Below, in pieces: positions 9,335 to 19,709 of a stretch of DNA of 64,000 bases; the first letter of the stretch is position 1; each line of letters starts with the position of its first letter. The stretch is taken from assembly GCF_018866305.1 (NCBI RefSeq), contig NZ_CP076456.1:186001-250000 (forward strand). Direction: 5' to 3'. The notes under the pieces were generated by a model. The model did no database searches and was not told where the DNA came from. It worked only from the letters and a program-made list of their open reading frames with translations. This stretch comes from Arthrobacter sunyaminii. Lineage in GTDB: Bacteria > Actinomycetota > Actinomycetes > Actinomycetales > Micrococcaceae. A program made the translations under genes and the position numbers.

Positions 9335-9834
9335 GCGGTCAGCTGCCGCTTGGAGGAAATGACCCCGGTATTGAAACCCGCCAGGTTCAAACCGCCGTGG
9401 AAGCGGGCGTGTTCAATCTTCACGCAGCGGTCCATCACTACATCCAGCCCGGCAGCTTCCGCATCTCGGGCCACCTCCTCGTGCCAGGAGCCTAGCTGCA
9501 GCCAGAGCGTTTTCGCACCGACGGCGATGCTCTCCTGCAGCACGGAGGGCAGGTCATCATGGCGGCGGAACACATCCACAATGTCGGGCACCTCCGGCAG
9601 GTCAGCCAGCGACGCGTAGACCGGCTGCCCCAGAATCTCCTTGGCGACAGGGTTCACGAAATAGACCGTGTACGGCGAGGAGGACAACAGGTAGGTTGCC
9701 ACAAAATAGGACGCCCGTGAGGGTTTGTCCGAGGCGCCCACAATTGCGATGGACTTGGCCCGGCGCAGCAGCGCCAGCCGTTCCGGGGCGCTCGGGCCCT
9801 CCCAGGTGCGCGGTGCGGCGGCTTCAGCGGACAT
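9331..9834 (-). CDS. CoA-binding domain protein (YccU-like)
   Basis: A 167-aa Rossmann-fold protein. It has the AIVGASDKPSRASYFVATYL nucleotide-binding start, NPVAKEILGQPVYASLADLP, then VDVFRRHDDLP and the TLWLQLG and GLDVVMDRCVKIEHARF signatures of stand-alone CoA-binding proteins. The function of the family is not settled. The ATG at 9834 lies inside the end of metY (11-bp overlap), so it is co-transcribed with, and probably coupled to, metY. A second, diverged copy is at 19290-19709. Confidence 0.85.
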   Translation of the reverse strand: MSAEAAAPRTWEGPSAPERLALLRRAKSIAIVGASDKPSRASYFVATYLLSSSPYTVYFVNPVAKEILGQPVYASLADLPEVPDIVDVFRRHDDLPSVLQESIAVGAKTLWLQLGSWHEEVARDAEAAGLDVVMDRCVKIEHARFHGGLNLAGFNTGVISSKRQLTA

Positions 9835-11215
9835 GGGCGGACTCCTCAAGATCAAAGGTGCGGGCCTGCGGGGCGGTGCCGGACAGTGCGGCGGCGGCGG
9901 GAACGCCTGGTTCGGATCCGGCCTGCGGTGCAGACGCGGCAACGGCCAGAGCCTGGTCCAGATCCCAGAGGATGTCCTCAAGGTCCTCCAGGCCAACCGA
10001 AATCCGCACCAGATCCTCCGCGACTCCGGCGGCGGCAAGCTGTTCGGGGGAGAGCTGGCCGTGCGTGGTGGAGCCCGGGTGGATCACCAGGGTGCGCGAG
10101 TCACCCACGTTCGCCAGATGCGACGCCAGCTGCAGGGCCTCGATGAACGCCTTGCCGGCCTCCCGGCCCCCGCGGACACCGAAGCTGAAGACCGATCCCG
10201 GTCCCTTGGGCAGGTACTTCCGGGCCCGATCGTAGTGCGGATGGGACGGCAGTCCGGCATAGCTGACCCAGGACACGCGCGGATCGGTTTCCAGCCACTG
10301 CGCCACTGCGGAGGCGTTGCGCAGATGCTCGTCCAGTCGCTGCGGCAGGGTTTCCACGCCCTGCAGCAGCTGGAACGCCGACTGGGCGCTGAGCGAGGGG
10401 CCGATGTCCCGCAGCTGCTCCGAGCGCAGCTTCGTCAGGAACCCGTACTCGCCGAAGTTTCCCCACCACGAAATGTTGCCGTAGCTTGCCACGGGCTCGG
10501 TCATGGCGGGGAACTTTCCATTGCCCCAGTTGAACTTTCCGGATTCGACGACGACGCCGCCCAGGGTGGTGCCGTGCCCGCCGAGGAACTTGGTGGCGGA
10601 GTGGATCACAATGTCCGCGCCGTGCTCAAACGGCCGCACCAGATACGGCGTGCTCAAGGTGGCGTCCAGGATCAGCGGCACACCGGCGTCGTGCGCCACC
10701 TGAGCCAGCCCGGCAATGTCGGTGACCTCGCCGCTGGGGTTGGCAACCACCTCGGCGTAGACGGCCTTGGTGTTCTCCCGAATGGCCGCAGCATAGTCGG
10801 CCGGGTCCGTGCCGGCCACGAAGGTGGTGTCGATCCCGAACCGGCGCAGGGTCACGTCCAGCTGGGTGACGGTGCCGCCGTACAGCTGGGCCGCGGCCAC
10901 GATGTGGTCACCGGCTCCGCACAAGGCGGCGAAGGTGACGAATTCCGCGGACATGCCCGACGCCGTCGCCACCGCTCCGATGCCGCCCTCCAGGGAGGCG
11001 ATGCGCTCCTCGAAGGCCGCGACCGTGGGGTTGCCGATCCGCGAGTAGATGTTGCCGTACTTCTGCAGCGAGAACAGGTTCGCGGCATCGTCGGTGTCCT
11101 TGAAGACAAAGGACGTGCTCTGGTAGATGGGCACGGCACGGGCACCGTGCGTGGCGTCGGGGGTGCCGCCGGCGTGCAGGGCACGGGTACGGAAGCCAAA
11201 CTGGCGATCACTCAT
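9824..11215 (-). CDS. metY: O-acetylhomoserine sulfhydrylase
   Basis: A PLP enzyme of the Cys/Met metabolism family, 463 aa. It condenses O-acetylhomoserine with sulfide to give homocysteine (direct sulfhydrylation). It shows the N-terminal FGFRTRALHAG, YQSTSFVF, SRIGNPTVAAFE, and the PLP-lysine motif SATKFLGGHGTT near residue 207. The start at 11215 has a strong AGGAAGGAG ribosome-binding site. A perfect 7-bp GC hairpin (11241-11257) lies just upstream of that site in the leader. No SAM riboswitch is visible in its leader, unlike the sulfur genes at 16-17 kb. Confidence 0.93.
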   Translation of the reverse strand: MSDRQFGFRTRALHAGGTPDATHGARAVPIYQSTSFVFKDTDDAANLFSLQKYGNIYSRIGNPTVAAFEERIASLEGGIGAVATASGMSAEFVTFAALCGAGDHIVAAAQLYGGTVTQLDVTLRRFGIDTTFVAGTDPADYAAAIRENTKAVYAEVVANPSGEVTDIAGLAQVAHDAGVPLILDATLSTPYLVRPFEHGADIVIHSATKFLGGHGTTLGGVVVESGKFNWGNGKFPAMTEPVASYGNISWWGNFGEYGFLTKLRSEQLRDIGPSLSAQSAFQLLQGVETLPQRLDEHLRNASAVAQWLETDPRVSWVSYAGLPSHPHYDRARKYLPKGPGSVFSFGVRGGREAGKAFIEALQLASHLANVGDSRTLVIHPGSTTHGQLSPEQLAAAGVAEDLVRISVGLEDLEDILWDLDQALAVAASAPQAGSEPGVPAAAALSGTAPQARTFDLEESAHVR

Positions 11216-11385
11216 GAAATGAGTGCTCCTTCCTGGTGTGCCGCCGCAAAGCGGCGGGTGGATCGTTGCAAGTAGAGGGCGGCGGACGAACAATGGGGAA
11301 CAGGACTGCAAGGCTGGGCAGAACCGCAGATCCGAGACGGACAGCGGCGGGGGAGCCGGACGGCACGACGAAGGGCAAGATCCCA

Positions 11386-11646
11386 ATGGACCAATACGTG
11401 GTTGTCATCGAGACCGGCTACAAAGTTGCCGCTGCTACACACAAGGTCACCGCCACCGATCCGATGCCGCCGGTGGAGGCTAACCGGCTGTTCCTGGAAC
11501 TGCTGGAGGGCATGCACGCTGACCTGCTGCCGGCCAAGGCGGACACCACCATGCTGGAGGTTTCGCCCACGGAATTCGTGCGCATCCACCGCCTGATGGG
11601 CGGCGTGGTGGTGCTGGACCGGGTGACCCTGGCCCGCGTTCACTGA
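11386..11646 (+). CDS. Small conserved hypothetical protein, 86 aa
   Basis: Starts MDQYVVVIETGYKVAAATH after an AAGGGCAAGA ribosome-binding site. It is soluble, with no signal peptide and a compact alternating hydrophobic pattern consistent with an alpha/beta fold. It is divergent from metY, and its last 7 bases overlap the end of the convergent acs-like gene. Function unknown; third-position GC supports it as a true gene. Confidence 0.65.
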   Translation: MDQYVVVIETGYKVAAATHKVTATDPMPPVEANRLFLELLEGMHADLLPAKADTTMLEVSPTEFVRIHRLMGGVVVLDRVTLARVH

Positions 11647-13709
11647 GAAACCCCGCGGCGGCGCGCTTCACACACATCCGCGATGTCCGCGATGCACGGT
11701 TCATTCTGCAGGCTGGTGGTGTCGCCCAGTGGCGTGCCCTCGAACAGCTGCGTCAGCAGGCGGCGCATGATCTTCCCGGACCGCGTCTTGGGAACATCAG
11801 GAACCACGACGACGGCGGCCGGCTTGGCGATCGGCCCGATCTGCCGGGCAACGTGTGCCCGGAGCTCAGCCGTGACCCGCTGGGTGAAATCCGAATCCGG
11901 TTTGGTGCCCGCTTTGGTGCCCGCTTTGGTGCCCGCTTCGGTGCCCGCGGCGGGTGCAGCGGAGGACAGCACGACGAACGCGGCAATGGCATGCCCGGTC
12001 TTCGGATCCGCAACCGGGCAGACCCCGGCTTCGGTGACCCAGGGATGGGACACCAGCGCGGACTCGATTTCAATCGTGGACAGCCGGTGTCCGGAGACGT
12101 TGAGGACGTCGTCGGTGCGGCCCAGGATCCAGGTGTCGCCGTCGTCGTCGTACTTGGCGCCGTCACCGGCGAGGAACCAGCCCTGCCGTGCGTACTGCCG
12201 CCAGTAGGACGCCAAGTAACGCTGCGGATCGCCCCAGACGGTGCGGGCCATGGCCGGGCCGGTTTTGTCCACCACGATGAACCCCTGGGTGTGCGGGGGA
12301 ACCGGGTTTCCGGCGTCATCCACAATCCGGGTGGATACCCCGGGCAGGGCACGGGAGGCGCAGCCGGGCTTGAAGCCGGTGTCGGTGGGACGCGGGGAGA
12401 GGATGGTGGCGCCGGTTTCGGACTGCCACCAGGTGTCGATCACGGGAACTTCGCCGCGGCCGAGCTGCCCGCGCATCCACCGCCACGCCTCGGGATTCAC
12501 GGCCTCGCCCACGGTGCCGAGCAGGCGGATGGAGGACAAGTCCCAGGTGTCCGGGACGCCGTCGGGGAACCAGCCCATCAGCGACCGGACCAGGGTGGGA
12601 GCGGTGTAATAACTGGTCACCTTGTAGCGCTCGATGATCTCGAAATGCCGTCCCGGATGCGGGGTGTTCGGGGTGCCCTCGAAGATCACCTGGGTGACGC
12701 CGTTGGAGAGCGGCCCGTAGATCTCGTAGGTGTGCGCGGTGACCCAGGCCAGATCCGCGGTGCACCAGTGGACGTCCGCTTCCCGTGCACGTTCGTCCGG
12801 GTTGGCGAAAAGGAACTCGTAGCTCCAGGACGCCTGGGTCAGGTAACCGCCCATGGTGTGCACGAGGCCTTTGGGACGTCCGGTGGTTCCGGACGTGTAC
12901 ATGATGAACAACGGTGTTTCGGCGTCGAACGCCTCGGGTTCGTGGATGTTGGAGGCGGTGTCCACGGTCTCGTGCCACCAGAGGTCGCGGCCTTCGGTCC
13001 AGGCGATGTCGCAGCCCGTGCGGCGGACCACCAGAACGTGTTCGACGGCGTTGGCCCCGGACACGGCTGCATCGGCATTGTCCTTCACCGGCACGGCGGC
13101 GCCGCGGCGGAACTGGCCGTCGGTGGTGACCAGCAGCTTGGCGCCGGCGTCCTCGACCCGGAATTTCAGGGCCTCGGCGGAAAAGCCGCCAAACACGAGG
13201 GAATGGACGGCGCCGATCCGGGCACACGCCAGCGTGATGACGATGGTTTCCACGATGACCGGCAGGTAGATGACCACGCGGTCACCTTTGCCGATGCCCA
13301 GGTTCAGCAGTGCGTTGGCGGCGCGGGAGACCTCGCGCTGCAGATCCGCGTAGGTGACCGTGCGCCGGTCGCCGGGCTCGCCCTCGAAGTGCAGGGCCAC
13401 CTTGTCCCCGCGGCCGGCGGCAACGTGGCGGTCCACGCAGTTCACCGCCACGTTCAGGGTTCCGCCGGCAAACCATTCGATGGCAGGGATGCTGTACTCG
13501 GCCTCGGGCTCCGGGATCTCCGGTCCGCTCAGCCGCTGCGGCGGGGTAAACGTATGCGCCGTGTGCCAGGGCTGCTCCCACTGCAACCGCCGGGCGGCGG
13601 CTTCCCAGAACGCGATCCGCTCGGTTTCGGTGGTTGGGTCCGCCGCCGAGCTCTTCACATCCTGCAGTGCTTCTTCGAGTGTTTCCTGCAGTGTTGTGCT
13701 CAGGCCCAT
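11640..13709 (-). CDS. acs: Acetyl-CoA synthetase-like AMP-forming acyl-CoA ligase
   Basis: A 689-aa ANL-superfamily ligase that activates a short carboxylic acid via an acyl-AMP to acyl-CoA. Motifs include YTSGTTGRPKG (A3), the Acs-type ADVHWCTADLAWVTAHTY and DTWWQSETGA segments, GRTDDVLNVSGHR (A8 hinge), and PKTRSGKIMRR with the regulatory/catalytic lysine. Length and motifs fit acetyl-CoA synthetase. It starts inside the permease stop region (10-bp overlap) of a sulfonate-type ABC transporter and is probably controlled by the SAM-I riboswitch at the head of that operon. That makes a sulfur-linked acid or supply of acetyl groups for O-acetylhomoserine a possible role (inference). An AGTK tetrapeptide repeat interrupts the C-terminal domain. 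Confidence 0.88.
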   Translation of the reverse strand: MGLSTTLQETLEEALQDVKSSAADPTTETERIAFWEAAARRLQWEQPWHTAHTFTPPQRLSGPEIPEPEAEYSIPAIEWFAGGTLNVAVNCVDRHVAAGRGDKVALHFEGEPGDRRTVTYADLQREVSRAANALLNLGIGKGDRVVIYLPVIVETIVITLACARIGAVHSLVFGGFSAEALKFRVEDAGAKLLVTTDGQFRRGAAVPVKDNADAAVSGANAVEHVLVVRRTGCDIAWTEGRDLWWHETVDTASNIHEPEAFDAETPLFIMYTSGTTGRPKGLVHTMGGYLTQASWSYEFLFANPDERAREADVHWCTADLAWVTAHTYEIYGPLSNGVTQVIFEGTPNTPHPGRHFEIIERYKVTSYYTAPTLVRSLMGWFPDGVPDTWDLSSIRLLGTVGEAVNPEAWRWMRGQLGRGEVPVIDTWWQSETGATILSPRPTDTGFKPGCASRALPGVSTRIVDDAGNPVPPHTQGFIVVDKTGPAMARTVWGDPQRYLASYWRQYARQGWFLAGDGAKYDDDGDTWILGRTDDVLNVSGHRLSTIEIESALVSHPWVTEAGVCPVADPKTGHAIAAFVVLSSAAPAAGTEAGTKAGTKAGTKPDSDFTQRVTAELRAHVARQIGPIAKPAAVVVVPDVPKTRSGKIMRRLLTQLFEGTPLGDTTSLQNEPCIADIADVCEARRRGVSQ
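11901..11948 (-). repeat. 12-bp tandem repeat inside acs (AGTK units)
   Basis: Three exact copies of TTTGGTGCCCGC on the plus strand plus one copy with a single change (TTCGGTGCCCGC). On the coding strand this gives one AGTE and three AGTK tetrapeptides in the C-terminal domain. The unit is a multiple of three, so copy-number change would keep the frame. Confidence 0.92.
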
Positions 13710-14527
13710 TTGGCCACCGCCTTCTTTTCGGCCAGTCCCAGCAGGGCGTCGGTAATCTTGCCGATCACCGCCAGCAGGATGATGGCCAGCAGCAGCCGGT
13801 CGGTGCGCCCGTTGTTTTGCGAATCGGTCAGCAGGAAGCCCAGCCCCATGGAAGAGGCGATGAGTTCCGCGGCCACGAGGAACAGCCAGGACTGTGCCAG
13901 CGCCAGCCGCAGCCCGGAGAATACCGCCGGAACGACGGCGGGCAGCTGCACCGTGGTCAGGAGTTTCAGCCCGTTGAGTCCGAAGGCGCGGGCGGCCTCC
14001 ACCAGGTTCCGGTCCACGTGGCGCAGGGCCAGTGACACGGTGGTGAACACCGGGAAGAAGGCACCGATCGCAATCAGCGTGATTTTGGAGTCCTCGCCGA
14101 TCTTCAGCCACAGGATCAGCAGGGGGACCCAGGCCAGCGACGGCACGGCACGCAGTGCGCCGATCATCGGACCCAGCAGGATGTCGGCCAGGCGGGACAG
14201 CCCCAGCACGGCGCCCAGGGCCAGGCCCAGCAGCCCGCCGGCGGCGAAACCGATGAGCACCCGCTGGGTGGAGATGGCCACGTGGTTGCCCAGCTGGCCG
14301 CGGCCGATCAGGTCAGCTGCCGCGGTGTAGACGGCCGACGGCGAGGGCAGCTGGACCGGGCTGAAGATACCGGCGGCTGTGCTGATCTGCCAGGCGGCCA
14401 GTACCAGGACGGGAACCACCAGGCCCAGGCCCGCGCGGGTCCAGCGGCTGGCCAGGATGGTGTCGGCCGGCGCTGTATTCCCGGCACCGGCGCTCGCGGA
14501 TGCCGGGGTCTTCAGGGCCGAACTCAC
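13700..14527 (-). CDS. Sulfonate/nitrate/taurine-type ABC transporter permease
   Basis: A 275-aa inner-membrane subunit with about six transmembrane segments. The binding-protein-dependent permease (EAA-like) loop is at EAARAFGLNGLKLLTTVQLPA, as in SsuC/TauC. The GTG start overlaps the stop of the substrate-binding protein gene by 4 bp, and its 3' end overlaps the acs-like gene by 10 bp, so the three are translationally coupled. Confidence 0.87.
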   Translation of the reverse strand: MSSALKTPASASAGAGNTAPADTILASRWTRAGLGLVVPVLVLAAWQISTAAGIFSPVQLPSPSAVYTAAADLIGRGQLGNHVAISTQRVLIGFAAGGLLGLALGAVLGLSRLADILLGPMIGALRAVPSLAWVPLLILWLKIGEDSKITLIAIGAFFPVFTTVSLALRHVDRNLVEAARAFGLNGLKLLTTVQLPAVVPAVFSGLRLALAQSWLFLVAAELIASSMGLGFLLTDSQNNGRTDRLLLAIILLAVIGKITDALLGLAEKKAVAKWA

Positions 14528-15585
14528 TGTGCATCCGAAATGGACTCGGGATCAGCGGACTTCACGAAGGAGTCATCGAACAGGCCGTCCAGTGCCTTGT
14601 CCACGGCATCCTGGCTCGCGACGTCCCCGGTTTCCACCAGTGTGGGGCCGATTTTCTCAAGCACGCTGCGCTGGGCCTCACCCGGGGCGGGGTCCACGTC
14701 CAGATTGCTGCGTTCCAGCACCACGGTCTGGGCCACCGCCAGGTCCAGGCCGGCAACCTCGGCCAGGATCTGCGCCGTTTCCTCCGGGTTTTCAGCAGCC
14801 CACGCGCGGGCCTTCTCATAGGCGTTGACCACCGCCTGGGCGAGTTCCGGATCCTCTTCCAGGAAGGATTCGTTGGCGGCAAGGATGCCGTAGGTGTTGA
14901 AGTCCAGGTTGCGGTGGATCAACCGGGCACCGTTTTGTTCGGCACCCGCCATGATCGGGTCCAGCCCTGCCCACGCATCCACTGATCCGTTTTCCAGGGC
15001 GCTCCGGCCGTCTGCGTGCTGCAGCTGTTCCACGGTGACGTCGTCCAGGCTCAGTCCGGCTTCGTCCAGGGCCTGGACCAGGAAGAAGTAGGGGTCGGTG
15101 CCCTTGGTGGCCGCCACGGACTTGCCCTTGAGGTCCGCCACGGAGGTGATGTCCGAGTCGGCGCCCACCGCCAGGGCCGCCCATTCCGGCTGGGAGAAAA
15201 TGTCGATGGCCTTGATCGGGGATCCGTTGGCGCGGTGCAGCAGTGCTGCGGAGCCTGCGGTGGAACCGACGTCGATCGCCCCGGAGCGCAGGTTTTCATT
15301 GGCCTTGTTGGAGCCGGCCGACTGCACCCACTCCACCGTGACGCCGTCGTCGGCGAGGGCGGATTCCAGCCAGCCCTGGTCCTTGATGATCAGGCTGAGC
15401 GGGTTGTAGGTGGCGAAGTCGAGGGTGAGGGTTCCGCCGTCGGCCGCGCCGGCGTCGGCGGCGGCATCGGAATCCTCGCCTGCCACGCAACCGGTCAGCA
15501 GCAGGGAAGCTGCGGCGGCGGCTGCGGCCAGGGCCTTGAGCGCGGTGCGGGAAGCTGAGGGGGAACTGAGGGAACGGCTGTTCAT
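14524..15585 (-). CDS. Sulfonate-type ABC transporter substrate-binding lipoprotein
   Basis: A 353-aa lipoprotein. The N-terminal signal ends in a lipobox (LLLTGC), followed by an acidic linker and a SsuA/TauA-type periplasmic-binding fold (LTLDFATYNPLSLIIKDQGW, IDVGSTAGSAALLHRANG, VAATKGTDPYFFLVQAL, and VDAWAGLDPIMAGAE). It captures an organosulfonate or similar small anion outside the membrane and passes it to the adjacent permease. The precise ligand cannot be determined, but the riboswitch context favours a sulfur source. Confidence 0.88.
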   Translation of the reverse strand: MNSRSLSSPSASRTALKALAAAAAAASLLLTGCVAGEDSDAAADAGAADGGTLTLDFATYNPLSLIIKDQGWLESALADDGVTVEWVQSAGSNKANENLRSGAIDVGSTAGSAALLHRANGSPIKAIDIFSQPEWAALAVGADSDITSVADLKGKSVAATKGTDPYFFLVQALDEAGLSLDDVTVEQLQHADGRSALENGSVDAWAGLDPIMAGAEQNGARLIHRNLDFNTYGILAANESFLEEDPELAQAVVNAYEKARAWAAENPEETAQILAEVAGLDLAVAQTVVLERSNLDVDPAPGEAQRSVLEKIGPTLVETGDVASQDAVDKALDGLFDDSFVKSADPESISDAQ

Positions 15586-15692: not shown

Positions 15693-16517
15693 CTAGTGGC
15701 GGTCGACGCCGAGGCGGGCCAGGAGCTCGCCGCGCATTCGGGCCAGCTCGGCCGAGGCGCGGTTCCGCGGGCGCGGGCCGGGCACGGTGATGGTGTCTGT
15801 AATGGTGGCTCCGGAAGCACCGGGCTCCCTGCCCAGGACGATGATGCGGTCCGCCAGCTGGAGGGCTTCGTCCACGTCGTGGGTTACCAGCAGCACCGTG
15901 GTGGGGGTGGCCCGGTGAACCGCGAGCAGCAGGTCCTGCATCTTCAGTCGGGTCAGGGCATCCAGTGCACCGAACGGTTCATCCAGCAGGAGCACGCCGG
16001 GCGTGCGGGCAAGGGCCCGGGCAAGAGAAGCGCGCTGCGCCATGCCGCCGGAAACTGCCCGGGGACGGTGTTTGGCGAAGGCGGCCAGTTCCACCAGCTC
16101 CAGCAGTTCGGCCACCTTGGCCTTGCCGTTCTTGGCGCTGATGCCCTTGGGCAGGCCCATGGCGATGTTGGCCTGCAGGGTTTGCCAGGGCAGCAGCCGC
16201 GGTTCCTGGAACGCGACGGCGCACCGGTCATCAATGCCGCGCACGGGTGTTCCGTTGATCCGGACTTCCCCGCTGGTTGGAGCGTCCAGGCCGGCTGCGG
16301 CCCGCAGGAGCGTGGACTTTCCGCAGCCGCTGGAGCCCAGGATGGCCAGGACTTCGCCGGCATGTACGTCAAAGGTGATGTCCCGCAGCACCTGGTGGGT
16401 TTCACCGCCGGAGCCGAATGCGCGGCCGAGGGAGGAAAAGGCAACGGGAAGGGCGGAGCCGGCGGCGCGCGTTTGGGGCGGCGCGGCGGCAGGGGACTGT
16501 GAAGCCAGAGCGGTCAT
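15693..16517 (-). CDS. Sulfonate-type ABC transporter ATP-binding protein
   Basis: A 274-aa ATPase of the SsuB/TauB type. Walker A is GSSGCGKST, the signature is VSGGMAQRASLARAL, Walker B is LLLDEPFGALD, and the switch is LLVTHDVDEAL. An extra ~25-residue Ala/Pro-rich N-terminus precedes the domain. It is the first gene of the transporter-acs operon. The ribosome-binding site GGAGAG is directly abutted by the 3' strand of the SAM-I riboswitch closing stem, which suggests translational control. Confidence 0.9.
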   Translation of the reverse strand: MTALASQSPAAAPPQTRAAGSALPVAFSSLGRAFGSGGETHQVLRDITFDVHAGEVLAILGSSGCGKSTLLRAAAGLDAPTSGEVRINGTPVRGIDDRCAVAFQEPRLLPWQTLQANIAMGLPKGISAKNGKAKVAELLELVELAAFAKHRPRAVSGGMAQRASLARALARTPGVLLLDEPFGALDALTRLKMQDLLLAVHRATPTTVLLVTHDVDEALQLADRIIVLGREPGASGATITDTITVPGPRPRNRASAELARMRGELLARLGVDRH

Positions 16518-16524
16518 GTTAACT

Positions 16525-16685
16525 CTCCATCGGTCCTGGCAGTAGCACCCTACGGATAACGCCTTGGGCCGGTAGGCCTCCTGCGGTGTTGTCCTCGCTA
16601 TTGCCGTCCCTCAAGGAGGAGGTACGGCAACCAGGGTTGCTGCGGCTTCACTGATCCAGGTCTCTCAGCCGCTCGGGATGGTCAA
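16525..16685 (-). promoter_or_regulatory. SAM-I (S-box) riboswitch controlling the sulfonate transporter-acs operon
   Basis: Read on the minus strand, the leader has the S-box core: closing stem CCATC (16677-16681) with GATGG (16527-16531), GCGGCTGAGAGACCTGG, then GAAGCCGCAGCAACC and downstream GGGTGCTACTGCCAGGACC. The P2 loop ACCTGG can pair with CCAGG as the expected pseudoknot. The variable P3 arm is long. The P1 3' strand runs straight into the GGAGAG ribosome-binding site of the ABC ATPase gene, 10 nt before its ATG. SAM binding would be expected to lower expression when methionine is plentiful. Confidence 0.85.
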
Positions 16686-16913
16686 GAGCAACTAAACGCG
16701 CGATTGCGGAAACCGGCAAGTCCCCCGCGTAATATTTCGACGCCGCCTGTGCCGGCGGGGGCGCCGGGGGGGTGGGAGTGGAGGCCAAGCTATCTGTGGA
16801 GTCTGGGACAGGATGGGGCGTGCTGCCAACCAGTGGTCATGCGGGGTCATAAATCCGTTCACACGGGGTCATGTTCTTTCCTTGCCTGTTCCGCTGTGCA
16901 AATACTGGTGGCG

Positions 16914-16998
16914 AAGGATCATGAGTCCCAACGCAAAGCTCTGGCTGGTTGGGCGGCAACCCTCTTTCCGTAGCGGGGTGCCCCAGATGAGGATCCGG
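16914..16998 (+). promoter_or_regulatory. SAM-IV riboswitch controlling the FMN monooxygenase gene
   Basis: On the plus strand: closing stem GGATC (16916-16920) with GATCC (16992-16996); ATGAG; CCCAAC...GTTGGG stem; the conserved GGCGGCAACC; and GCGGGGTGCCCC before the 3' strand. The arrangement matches the actinobacterial SAM-IV class rather than SAM-I: short, with no long P4 arm inside P1. It ends about 70 nt before the GTG at 17067. Confidence 0.85.
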
Positions 16999-17066
16999 CC
17001 GTGTCGCGTCCGCGAACGGCAAGTACGGCGCCCCAGCGGGTGCGTCCCGTCCCGAAGGATTTCCCC

Positions 17067-18488
17067 GTGTCCGAATCATCTTCCTCAACACCTCAGAACA
17101 GCCGGCGGCAGATCCGGTTCAACGCCTTTGACATGAACTGCGTGGGCCATCAGTCTCCGGGACTGTGGCGCCATCCGCAGGACCAGTCCGCGAATTACAC
17201 GGATCTCCGCTATTGGGCCAACCTGGCCCAAACCTGCGAGCGCGGATTGTTTGACGGCATTTTTATCGCAGACGTCCTGGGTACCTATGACGTGTATGGA
17301 AACTCCAACGAGGCCACACTGCGGCAGGGCACCCAGGTGCCGGTGAATGACCCGCTGCTGCTGGTCTCCGCCATGGCACTGGTCACCGAGCACCTCGGTT
17401 TCGGCATCACCGCGGGAACAGCCTATGAACACCCCTACCCCTTCGCGCGGCGCCTCTCCACCCTGGACCACCTCACCAACGGCCGGGTTGGCTGGAACGT
17501 GGTTACCGGCTACCTGCCCTCGGCGGCCCGCAACATGGGTGCCGAAGACCAGCTTGAGCACGACGAGCGCTACAACCACGCGGATGAATACCTCGAGGTG
17601 ATCTACAAGCTGCTGGAAGGCTCCTGGGAGGATGACGCCGTCGTCCGGGACAAGGACAGCGGCATCTTCACCGACCCGGCGAAGGTGCATGACATCAACC
17701 ATGAGGGCAAGTACTTCAAGGTTCCCGGCATCCATATCAGTGAGCCGTCACCGCAGCGCACCCCGGTGATCTTCCAGGCCGGCGCCTCGCCGCGGGGCAT
17801 TGCCTTTGCCGCCGGCAATGCCGAGGCCGTCTTCGTGGGCGCCCCCACGAAGGAAAAGCTCAGGGCCACGGTCACCCGGATTCGTGATGCCGCCGAAGCC
17901 GCCGGCCGGGACCGCCACTCCATCCGGATCTACACGCTGCTGACCATCATCACCGCGGCAACATCCGAGGAAGCCGAAGCCAAGCATGTGGACTACCAGC
18001 GGTACGCCAGCGACGAGGGTGCCCTGGCCCTGATGTCCGGCTGGCTCGGCGTGGATCTGTCCACCTACAACCTGGACGAGCCGCTGGGCAATGTGCAGTC
18101 CAATGCGATCCAGTCTGCCGCGGACAACTTCCAAAAAGCGAAGGACGACGGCGAACCCTGGACGGTGCGCGACATCGCCGAATCCGCGGGGATCGGCGGG
18201 CTGGGTCCGCGGCTGGTGGGCTCGGGGTCCGACGTCGCCGAGGAGCTGATCCGGTGGGTGGAAGAGACCGATGTGGACGGCTTCAACCTGGCCTACGCCA
18301 TTACCCCGGGTACCTTCGAGGACGTGGTGGAATTTGTGGTGCCGGAGCTGCAGAAGCGCGGTGCCTACCGGACGGAATATACCCCGGGGACGCTGCGCCA
18401 CAAGCTCTTCGGTGCCGGTGACAAGCTGCCCGAAAACCACCGCGGCGCGTCCTTCCGTCTGCAGCCGGCAGGGATTCCGGCACGCTGA
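17067..18488 (+). CDS. NtaA/DszA-family FMN-dependent monooxygenase
   Basis: A 473-aa luciferase-like flavin monooxygenase that uses reduced FMN from a separate reductase. Family segments: FNAFDMNCVGHQSPGLWRHP at the start, RGLFDGIFIADVLGTYDVY, RRLSTLDHLTNGRVGWNVVT, and QAGASPRGIAFAAGNAEAVF. Members of this branch attack nitrilotriacetate, dibenzothiophene sulfone and alkyl-sulfur compounds. The upstream SAM-IV riboswitch and divergent sulfonate transporter point to release of sulfur from an organic compound (inference). The GTG at 17067 has GAAGGA upstream and is preferred over a GTG at 17001, which lies too close to the riboswitch. Confidence 0.88.
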   Translation: MSESSSSTPQNSRRQIRFNAFDMNCVGHQSPGLWRHPQDQSANYTDLRYWANLAQTCERGLFDGIFIADVLGTYDVYGNSNEATLRQGTQVPVNDPLLLVSAMALVTEHLGFGITAGTAYEHPYPFARRLSTLDHLTNGRVGWNVVTGYLPSAARNMGAEDQLEHDERYNHADEYLEVIYKLLEGSWEDDAVVRDKDSGIFTDPAKVHDINHEGKYFKVPGIHISEPSPQRTPVIFQAGASPRGIAFAAGNAEAVFVGAPTKEKLRATVTRIRDAAEAAGRDRHSIRIYTLLTIITAATSEEAEAKHVDYQRYASDEGALALMSGWLGVDLSTYNLDEPLGNVQSNAIQSAADNFQKAKDDGEPWTVRDIAESAGIGGLGPRLVGSGSDVAEELIRWVEETDVDGFNLAYAITPGTFEDVVEFVVPELQKRGAYRTEYTPGTLRHKLFGAGDKLPENHRGASFRLQPAGIPAR

Positions 18489-18615
18489 GGGGTTCCGCCG
18501 TCCGGCCGGAGGTTTGCGGGGCGGGTTCCGGGCGGGGCCATTGACCGGGGACGGACTGCCTCCTTACGTTTGAAGGGTCCGCGCAGTGAACCCCTTTAGC
18601 GAGCAGGAGTCGGCT

Positions 18616-19233
18616 ATGGAACCCTCACCCAGCGCCACCGGCATGGCCCTTTCCGCCGACGGCACCCGCATCGCCTGGTCCCGGCAGGGCGACGGTCCAC
18701 CCCTGGTGATCGTGGATCCGCTGACAGCTGACCGCAACAGTTCCAGTACCCGGGCCCTGGCGCAGCTGCTCTCCGGAAACCACACCGTCTACACGTATGA
18801 CCGGCGCGGACTGGGTGAAAGCGACGTGGGGGAGGAGTATACGGCCGAGTCCGACGTTGATGACCTGCTGGCAGTGGTGCAGGTGGCCGGCGGAAGGGCA
18901 GACCTCTACGGGTTCGCGTCTGGTGCCTTCCTGGCGCTGCGCGCCGCCGAGGAATCCGCCGTGATCACGCGGGTTGTCGCGCTGGAGCCGACCCTGGCCC
19001 TGGAGGAGGGCGAAGACGAGATGCTGGTGCTGCAGACGGAACTTGAGGGACTCGGCGGTGTGCAGGTGCCCGTGCTGGTGCTGGCAGGGAGCGCCAGCGG
19101 CAACGAAACGCAGGATCTGGCCCGGCGGGCCGCCGATGCCCTGGAGGAAGGGGAGTTCCAGCTGCTGGAAGGCAACACCGCCAGTGTGCCGGAGACCGCC
19201 CTGGCCGATGCCATCGAATCTTTCCTGAGCTGA
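18616..19233 (+). CDS. Alpha/beta-hydrolase-fold protein lacking catalytic residues
   Basis: A 205-aa protein with the fold's landmarks: GDGPPLVIV (strand 3), VYTYDRRGLGESD (oxyanion/strand 4 region), and a nucleophile-elbow-like ADLYGFASGAFLAL. Where relatives have Gly-x-Ser-x-Gly, this has Gly-Phe-Ala-Ser-Gly, so the nucleophile position (about residue 101) is Ala. Near the C-terminus the usual Gly-x-Thr-His is GNTAS, so the catalytic His is also absent. The cap region is short compared with ~260-aa relatives. It is probably a non-catalytic binding protein. The start at 18616 has AGGAG upstream. Confidence 0.75.
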   Translation: MEPSPSATGMALSADGTRIAWSRQGDGPPLVIVDPLTADRNSSSTRALAQLLSGNHTVYTYDRRGLGESDVGEEYTAESDVDDLLAVVQVAGGRADLYGFASGAFLALRAAEESAVITRVVALEPTLALEEGEDEMLVLQTELEGLGGVQVPVLVLAGSASGNETQDLARRAADALEEGEFQLLEGNTASVPETALADAIESFLS

Positions 19234-19289
19234 GACACGCAGCCGGGCGTAAGCTGGTGCCCGATCCAGAGCCCACCGAAGGACGGCAG

Positions 19290-19709
19290 ATGACACACGT
19301 CAATAACCCCGCAGTTGTCGAAGCACTTCTGACCAACAAGGGCGCCCGCTGGGCGGTGGTGGGCCTGTCCAACAATCCGCGCCGCACCGCCGTCGGCGTC
19401 TCCCGTTACATCCAGGACCACCTCGGAATGGAAATCATCCCGGTGAGCCTGAAGGGAGACGATGTCCACGGCAACAAGGGCTACCGGCAGCTCAGCGAAA
19501 TCCCCGGACAGATCGACGTCGTTGACTGCTTCGTGAATTCCTCCCGTGTCGGGAACATAGTGGACCAGGCCATCGAGGCAGGCGCCAAGGCGGTGTGGCT
19601 CCAGCTGGGCGTGATCGACGAGGCAGCGGCGCAGCGGGCGGCCGACGCCGGGCTGGACGTGGTCATGGACACCTGTCCCGTCATCGAAGCTCCCCGGTTC
19701 GGTCTCTGA
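19290..19709 (+). CDS. CoA-binding domain protein (YccU-like), second copy
   Basis: A 139-aa Rossmann-fold CoA-binding protein: RWAVVGLSNNPRRTAVGVSRYI, GYRQLSEIPGQIDVVDCFVN, AVWLQLGVID, and AGLDVVMDTCPVIEAPRF. It is clearly related to the product of 9331-9834 but shorter and diverged. It follows the hydrolase-like gene by 56 bp on the same strand and has GAAGGA before the ATG. The function of the family is unsettled. Confidence 0.85.
   Translation: MTHVNNPAVVEALLTNKGARWAVVGLSNNPRRTAVGVSRYIQDHLGMEIIPVSLKGDDVHGNKGYRQLSEIPGQIDVVDCFVNSSRVGNIVDQAIEAGAKAVWLQLGVIDEAAAQRAADAGLDVVMDTCPVIEAPRFGL

Follow-up and report, generated by a model that had tools for sequence, protein, structure and literature searches.

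Divergent SAM-IV and P4-less SAM-I-type riboswitches at an organosulfur locus of Arthrobacter sunyaminii

Between a sulfonate-type ABC operon and an FMN monooxygenase gene of Arthrobacter sunyaminii, a preliminary description placed two divergent SAM riboswitches of different classes, and proposed that these unrelated-looking sensors would let uptake and catabolism respond to SAM with different sensitivities. Are both elements what they were taken to be, and is it the difference in class that matters? Both questions were addressed in the window, the whole 64,000-nucleotide stretch that was analysed (NZ_CP076456.1, positions 186,001 to 250,000), and in related genomes, for which G, C and L numbers are our handles for genomes, contigs and loci.

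Genes of the locus

9824–11263, minus: O-acetylhomoserine sulfhydrylase family (TIGR01326, above cut-off)
11640–13709, minus: acetate–CoA ligase (TIGR02188, above cut-off)
13700–14527, minus: SsuC-like permease (below the equivalog cut-off)
14524–15585, minus: SsuA-family substrate-binding protein (TIGR01728, above cut-off)
15693–16517, minus: sulfonate-type ABC ATP-binding protein (nearest NCBIfam families are sulfonate, nitrate and taurine ATPases, all below cut-offs)
17067–18488, plus: NtaA/DmoA-family FMN-dependent monooxygenase (TIGR03860, above cut-off)
18586–19233, plus: alpha/beta-hydrolase-like protein, the next plus-side gene (weak family matches)
19257–19709, plus: small CoA-binding-domain-like protein (weak family matches)

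The minus strand encodes, in order, the ABC ATPase, binding protein and permease, then acetate–CoA ligase and O-acetylhomoserine sulfhydrylase. The closest solved chain to the monooxygenase is 6ak1, a dimethyl-sulfide monooxygenase (E 3.4e-175), and the family matches agree with the earlier assignment of an ABC operon to the minus side and an FMN monooxygenase to the plus side. From the ATG at 16517 (minus) to the likely GTG at 17067 (plus) the intergenic gap measures 549 bp, with 232 bp between the aptamers, as previously given (549 bp and about 230 bp). The sequence CGGGGTCAT occurs between the riboswitches in two direct copies (16842–16850 and 16864–16872, together spanning 16842–16872) and is a possible regulator site.

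Identification of the two aptamers

16524–16684, minus: P4-less SAM-I-type aptamer, 5′ leader of the sulfonate-type ABC operon (RF00162)
16917–17031, plus: SAM-IV aptamer, leader of the monooxygenase unit (RF00634, 97.0 bits)

Covariance models find two SAM-clan elements in divergent orientation, RF00162 on the minus strand and RF00634 on the plus strand, bearing out the two classes first reported. The plus element is a SAM-IV riboswitch: a cmscan of the whole window matched it over the full model (1–116) against a cut-off of 38 bits. The preliminary description had its class right but its span (16914–16998) too short, omitting P5 and the 3′ strand of PK-2. For the minus element, the match at 16684–16524 agrees with the SAM-I span proposed before (16525–16685); a cmscan of a 641-base stretch covers the full model (1–108) at 42.0 bits (E 3.7e-8). 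The match falls 2.4 bits short of the RF00162 gathering score of 44.4, and the element is missing from the default whole-window Rfam scan, appearing once the cut-off is relaxed. SAM-I outscores SAM-IV for it in clan competition. The SAM-I/IV class is ruled out, as RF01725 matches nowhere in the genome at E ≤ 10, and a weak SAM-Chlorobi match (14.2 against 35 bits) was taken as chance. The minus element is a P4-less SAM-I variant in the SAM clan; we do not class it with the standard form, as it lacks P4 and scores under the cut-off. The observation of two divergent SAM riboswitches is confirmed, and the interpretation first given to it is partly supported: the sensors are not unrelated, as SAM-I and SAM-IV form one clan and share one ligand pocket according to the available parts of PMC6890682.

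The plus element fits SAM-IV fully, P5 (seen in the cmscan alignment) and PK-2 included, with the following features.

16968–16972, plus: 5′ strand of PK-2, CCGUA, in the P3 loop (sequence)
17024–17028, plus: 3′ strand of PK-2, UACGG (sequence)
17054–17069, plus: Shine-Dalgarno GAAGGA (17054–17059) and likely GTG start of the monooxygenase (sequence; layout similar by eye in orthologues)

The PK-2 strands CCGUA/UACGG pair, and the other SAM-IV elements of this genome read CCGCG/CGCGG, GCUC/GAGC and UGUUC/GGACA, the letters changing together in four of the five; in the fifth (L003) the strands pair in a different register only.

Core of the minus-strand element

16677–16681, minus: 5′ strand of P1, CCAUC (sequence, alignment)
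16656–16660, minus: P2 loop strand of PK-1, CCUGG (alignments)
16548–16636, minus: P3 insert module, a three-way junction with hairpins P3a and P3b (covariation, model R2)
16535–16539, minus: J3/1 strand of PK-1, CCAGG (alignments); no P4 between this strand and P1
16527–16531, minus: 3′ strand of P1, GAUGG (sequence), its GG being part of the Shine-Dalgarno GGAG
16525–16528, minus: Shine-Dalgarno GGAG, 7 nt before the ATG at 16517–16515

Across the genus the minus element is 161–166 nt long and retains the SAM-I core. The k-turn letters in P2 match the consensus and vary little or not at all among 30 elements, and PK-1 reads CCUGG/CCAGG in all 30 elements of alignment A1; in other elements its strands change as pairs (UCUGG/CCAGA, CCUGCC/GGCAGG), alongside occasional wobbles and a single mismatch (L015). 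The GCAACC/GGUGC core of P3 is present, and the pocket residues (6–8, 11–12, 44–47, 57–59 and 87, after the available parts of PMC6890682) equal the Rfam consensus in the alignment by inspection. What departs from RF00162 is the absence of P4 and the replacement of the P3 tip by a three-way-junction module of 89–102 nt; the element is not a textbook SAM-I.

In place of P4, 2 nt stand for 18 model positions in the cmscan alignment, as they do in all five SAM-I alignments of shorter elements shown. Pattern parsing of 85 distinct elements gave a stretch of 8–12 nt, as split, from GGUGCU to the P1 strand in 83; the remaining two were misparsed, yet have the same letters. P4 is absent from all 85 parsed SAM-I elements, a count that favours the Arthrobacter form, as the patterns admit only near-Arthrobacter forms, require the k-turn letters and overlooked some covariance-model matches (SAM-IV at L181–L183; L006). 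P4 is a discriminator of SAM-I against SAM-IV (PMC7270179, in part) and its absence a SAM-IV trait (PMC6890682), a trait that the minus element shares. It differs from SAM-IV in keeping the SAM-I k-turn and in having no room for P5 and PK-2 3′ of P1, where the start codon follows GGAG by 7 nt. SAM-I/IV belongs to the same broad superfamily of SAM pockets and is the reverse case, with P4 and without PK-1, in the account of PMC6890682 available.

The low RF00162 score is probably explained by the loss of P4 together with the change in P3. A sub-threshold score and a missing stem are also what a decayed SAM-I remnant would show; that reading is highly improbable, as the core is invariant among the 30 elements (P1, P2 and PK-1 in 100% and P3 in 99.5% of cells), the inserted stems covary, and the shorter sister elements, P4-less in the five alignments shown, pass the cut-off. 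Among SAM-I matches in relatives or elsewhere in this genome, 13 of 15 pass, at 49.6–64.6 bits. Given the 85 parsed elements, P4 seems dispensable in nature, a point relevant to the diversification of SAM-I, SAM-IV and SAM-I/IV around a common pocket; no description of a P4-less SAM-I was found in the mostly open-access literature, including the available parts of PMC2258182 and PMC3764141.

The P3 insert

The module, about 90 nt in the window element, is a conserved RNA fold without an assigned role. Its junction letters, AUA(A/G)CGAGG and CCGUA, are nearly invariant, and its stems covary: among 45 distinct sequences, two-sided changes occur at 10 of 11 P3a pairs, 6 of 9 P3b pairs and all four apical P3b pairs, and 96.1% of cells over the whole structure are paired, compared with 83.5% after shuffling and 30–57% with slid partners. 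Further pair types, one of five covariation measures and less striking than the others, are not exceptional (reached by 58 of 500 shuffles for A2 and 19 of 500 for A1). The 45-sequence alignment was fitted to the structure; the picture was no different in a MAFFT alignment of 30.

A module-only model found the insert in 27 of 197 family genomes, which represent 4 of 32 genera. Each of its 32 matches falls within a long SAM-I element detected by model R1; both R1 and R2 necessarily recover the sequences on which they were trained. Across 394 genomes of the class there are two strong matches, both within this family, and a further marginal one (G441, E 7.9e-4). The genes behind module-bearing elements encode the sulfonate-type ABC ATPase and, from translations of the frames downstream of 12 of the elements, more ATPases, an SBP_bac_5-like binding protein and an MFS-like transporter; in this sample the module precedes uptake genes only.

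We consider that the insert probably stiffens or tunes the aptamer. The covarying three-way junction with its nearly invariant letters, its confinement to long SAM-I elements and the transporter genes behind it would also suit a second sensing or protein- or RNA-binding domain supplying a second input to the uptake operon. That reading appears unlikely: a structural role would yield the same covariation, orthologous ABC operons of other species lack the module, and at E ≤ 10 only the SAM families of Rfam overlap it. The fuller version, a composite sensor in which a P4-less SAM-I with a nested P3 domain feeds a sulfur-metabolite, ion or protein input to transporter genes, opposite an ordinary SAM-IV on the catabolic side, is likewise doubtful.

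Kissing between the C-rich P3a loop and the G-rich P3b internal loop is unsupported, though all 45 distinct sequences allow 3–4 pairs: the observed mean was reached in 38 of 2,000 permutations of the 45 sequences and in 1,842 of 5,000 with the 20 unique loop pairs, and in A1, where one pair covaries, 7 of the 30 elements break another.

Conservation within Arthrobacter

Of 29 genus genomes, 28 have the minus element ahead of the orthologous ABC ATPase, and its position before the same sulfonate-type operon argues that it is real. The orthologous monooxygenase is present at 17 genus loci. SAM-IV precedes it at 16 of these, in one case (G012) as a SAM-IV–monooxygenase unit 8.6 kb away; at the seventeenth (G014) a SAM-I element (63.0 bits) stands there instead. 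A further 11 of the 28 loci have the ABC operon and its riboswitch with no monooxygenase in the stretch examined. The ABC unit therefore seems to be fixed, and the monooxygenase with its riboswitch to be a movable neighbour. At L089 in G023 both the ATPase and the monooxygenase are spread over several frames.

Several genus relatives (L068, L071–L073, L078, L080 and L082) have a sulfur island that carries three or four SAM riboswitches, and in it a further SAM-I-led ABC unit and a second monooxygenase (41–42% identical) lie about 4–9 kb beyond the pair.

Divergent pairs and exchange of class

A search for the same divergent pair in related genomes found a mixed pair within 1.3 kb in 15 of 29 genus genomes. 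Among the RF00162 and RF00634 matches entered for the genomes, all pairs within 1.3 kb are divergent, with none convergent and none on the same strand: 16 in the 29 genus genomes (15 SAM-I/SAM-IV, 1 SAM-I/SAM-I) and 15 in 46 named genomes (4 SAM-I/SAM-IV, 7 SAM-I/SAM-I, 4 SAM-IV/SAM-IV). Nine of the 15 mixed genus pairs have gaps of 137–261 bp and six of about 1.0–1.1 kb. Divergence is not a law, because among the matches listed for model R1 a same-strand SAM-I/SAM-I pair lies 733 bp apart in G220. The genus count rests on 60 SAM-I and 134 SAM-IV matches, 83 of the latter adding no pair within 3 kb. The named-genome count rests, under stricter filters, on 82 of 86 SAM-I and 96 of 111 SAM-IV matches, those left out being G029 (the same as G013) and eight SAM-IV matches of 33–45 bits, none near a SAM-I by eye; the named genomes come from 46 of 49 loci hand-picked among at least 80 monooxygenase loci.

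Mixed pairs also serve other genes (names partly from translations). In G042, SAM-I before a metF-like gene stands opposite SAM-IV before a metY-like gene; in G056, SAM-IV before an acyl-CoA-dehydrogenase-like gene stands opposite SAM-I before a MetE-like gene; and in G033 a SAM-I-like element with a UU pocket, described below, precedes a MetE-like gene opposite SAM-IV. The SAM-IV/SAM-IV pairs are 146–166 bp apart (G030:C44, G031:C105, G056:C28 and G057:C30), the one in G030 lying between a flavin-reductase-like and a binding-protein gene, as named from translation.

That the mixed pair is kept in so many genus genomes could mean that the two classes are retained for differing SAM affinity or kinetics, with uptake and catabolism switching at different SAM levels, as first proposed. 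We regard this as improbable. SAM-I lies directly upstream of the orthologous monooxygenase in G014 and seven named relatives, and on a quick protein tree of the monooxygenase the SAM-IV label needs at least two changes, the starred branches forcing two (55 rows, SH-aLRT support only). The tree holds 55 of 104 rows, with nine duplicates dropped and the riboswitch-less group cut to 18, and its label 'none' means none by pattern, the L108 genome having a SAM-IV that was not placed. Because class is exchanged before orthologous genes and same-class divergent pairs occur, the difference in class appears not to be what matters, and the idea of different sensitivities is weakened. SAM-I and SAM-IV look interchangeable at these loci. 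From the pair survey and the class changes, the arrangement is a genome habit of back-to-back SAM-controlled sulfur units whose class is free to change, not a dedicated two-sensor device.

Tandem SAM riboswitches (SAM-II/SAM-V, SAM-II/SAM-I-IV and double SAM-I) likewise combine two or more SAM sensors at a single locus, but they sit in a single 5′ leader (PMC9481103, in part), whereas the present pair lies on opposite strands in different transcripts. No description of divergent SAM-I/SAM-IV pairing was found in the mostly open-access literature, including the available parts of PMC9481103 and PMC12452182. Repeated class swaps before orthologous genes make the functional interchangeability of the SAM clan directly testable, and natural riboswitch pairs in one intergenic region provide material for such a test.

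Predicted regulation

16714–16719, minus: putative −35, TTGCCG (17-nt spacer to the putative −10)
16691–16696, minus: putative −10, TTTAGT (9 nt before P1)

We consider it likely that the two sides are independent translational OFF switches for an organosulfur-scavenging locus, with SAM binding and the OFF logic taken from the riboswitch families. When SAM, an end product of sulfur assimilation, is plentiful, both halves, sulfonate-type uptake and the DmoA-like monooxygenase, would fall, each aptamer operating independently. On the minus side, TTTAGT lies 9–10 nt before P1 in all 28 genus loci and GATGGAG, in which GGAG overlaps the 3′ strand of P1, occurs in all 28, so the leader seems barely more than the aptamer and the RNA would start at or beside it. 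An ATG stands 6–8 nt past GGAG in 27 of the 28 as parsed, and at 8 nt by eye in G025, where the pattern had picked a nearer ATG. SAM would stabilise the 5-bp P1, hiding the GG of the Shine-Dalgarno and blocking translation of the ATPase, with the aptamer relying on its k-turn and PK-1 and having no P4. SAM-I riboswitches are known to place the ribosome-binding site within the 3′ side of P1 (PMC2258182, in part), as the minus element does.

On the plus side, SAM-IV most likely acts on translation too, because a consensus scan found no terminator-like site. Such an absence is weak in a high-GC organism; with this caution, transcriptional attenuation was set aside. The aptamer ends 22 nt before the Shine-Dalgarno, and by eye an anti-Shine-Dalgarno just after PK-2 is clear in some orthologues and not in others, the window included, with no single one kept in all orthologues. 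A sigma-70 consensus scan found no promoter site, and the unconstrained minimum-energy fold of the minus leader is unexceptional (z −1.34).

The wider regulon looks like sulfur metabolism. Elsewhere in this genome, SAM-IV elements stand before a metY-like gene (PF01053) and before a flavin reductase (PF01613); those of SAM-I type lead a peptide-type binding protein (PF00496) and, at another site, a MetE-like protein (PF01717). Against a sulfur OFF switch count the two of five SAM-IV elements of the genome with no obvious sulfur gene behind them, the score of the minus element below the Rfam cut-off, and the missing P4, which could weaken or alter binding. The SAM-IV elements with unclear targets are at 980454–980577 and 3403321–3403457, both on the plus strand; one has an Nramp-family gene about 740 nt on, and one precedes a 128-aa frame with no Pfam match.

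Variants of the SAM-I core elsewhere

Outside the window, SAM-I-like elements at two loci, L248 (G056:C20) and L254 (G058:C1), read AGCAAAU and AGCAAGU in place of AGCAACC, a possible core change or decay. The element before the MetE-like gene of this genome (L008; G000:C1, 1964237–1964334, plus strand) is SAM-I-like and reads AGCUUCC where SAM-I has AGCAACC, which changes pocket residues A45 and A46 to UU (numbering after the available parts of PMC6890682 and PMC3764141). Thirteen distinct elements have the change, each upstream of the same gene (L008, L026, L183, L239–L247 and L249), and their PK-1 is flipped to CCUGCC/GGCAGG; 15 of 295 family genomes, from 2 of 32 genera, contain the signature, with none in a backwards-read control. 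More distant MetE-like homologues (L186 and L250, 63–64% identical) have AGCAACC elements. SAM-I variants with changed pocket letters took spermidine as ligand in the portion of PMC10853860 available, and the UU element is a possible candidate for a ligand-altered SAM-I variant.
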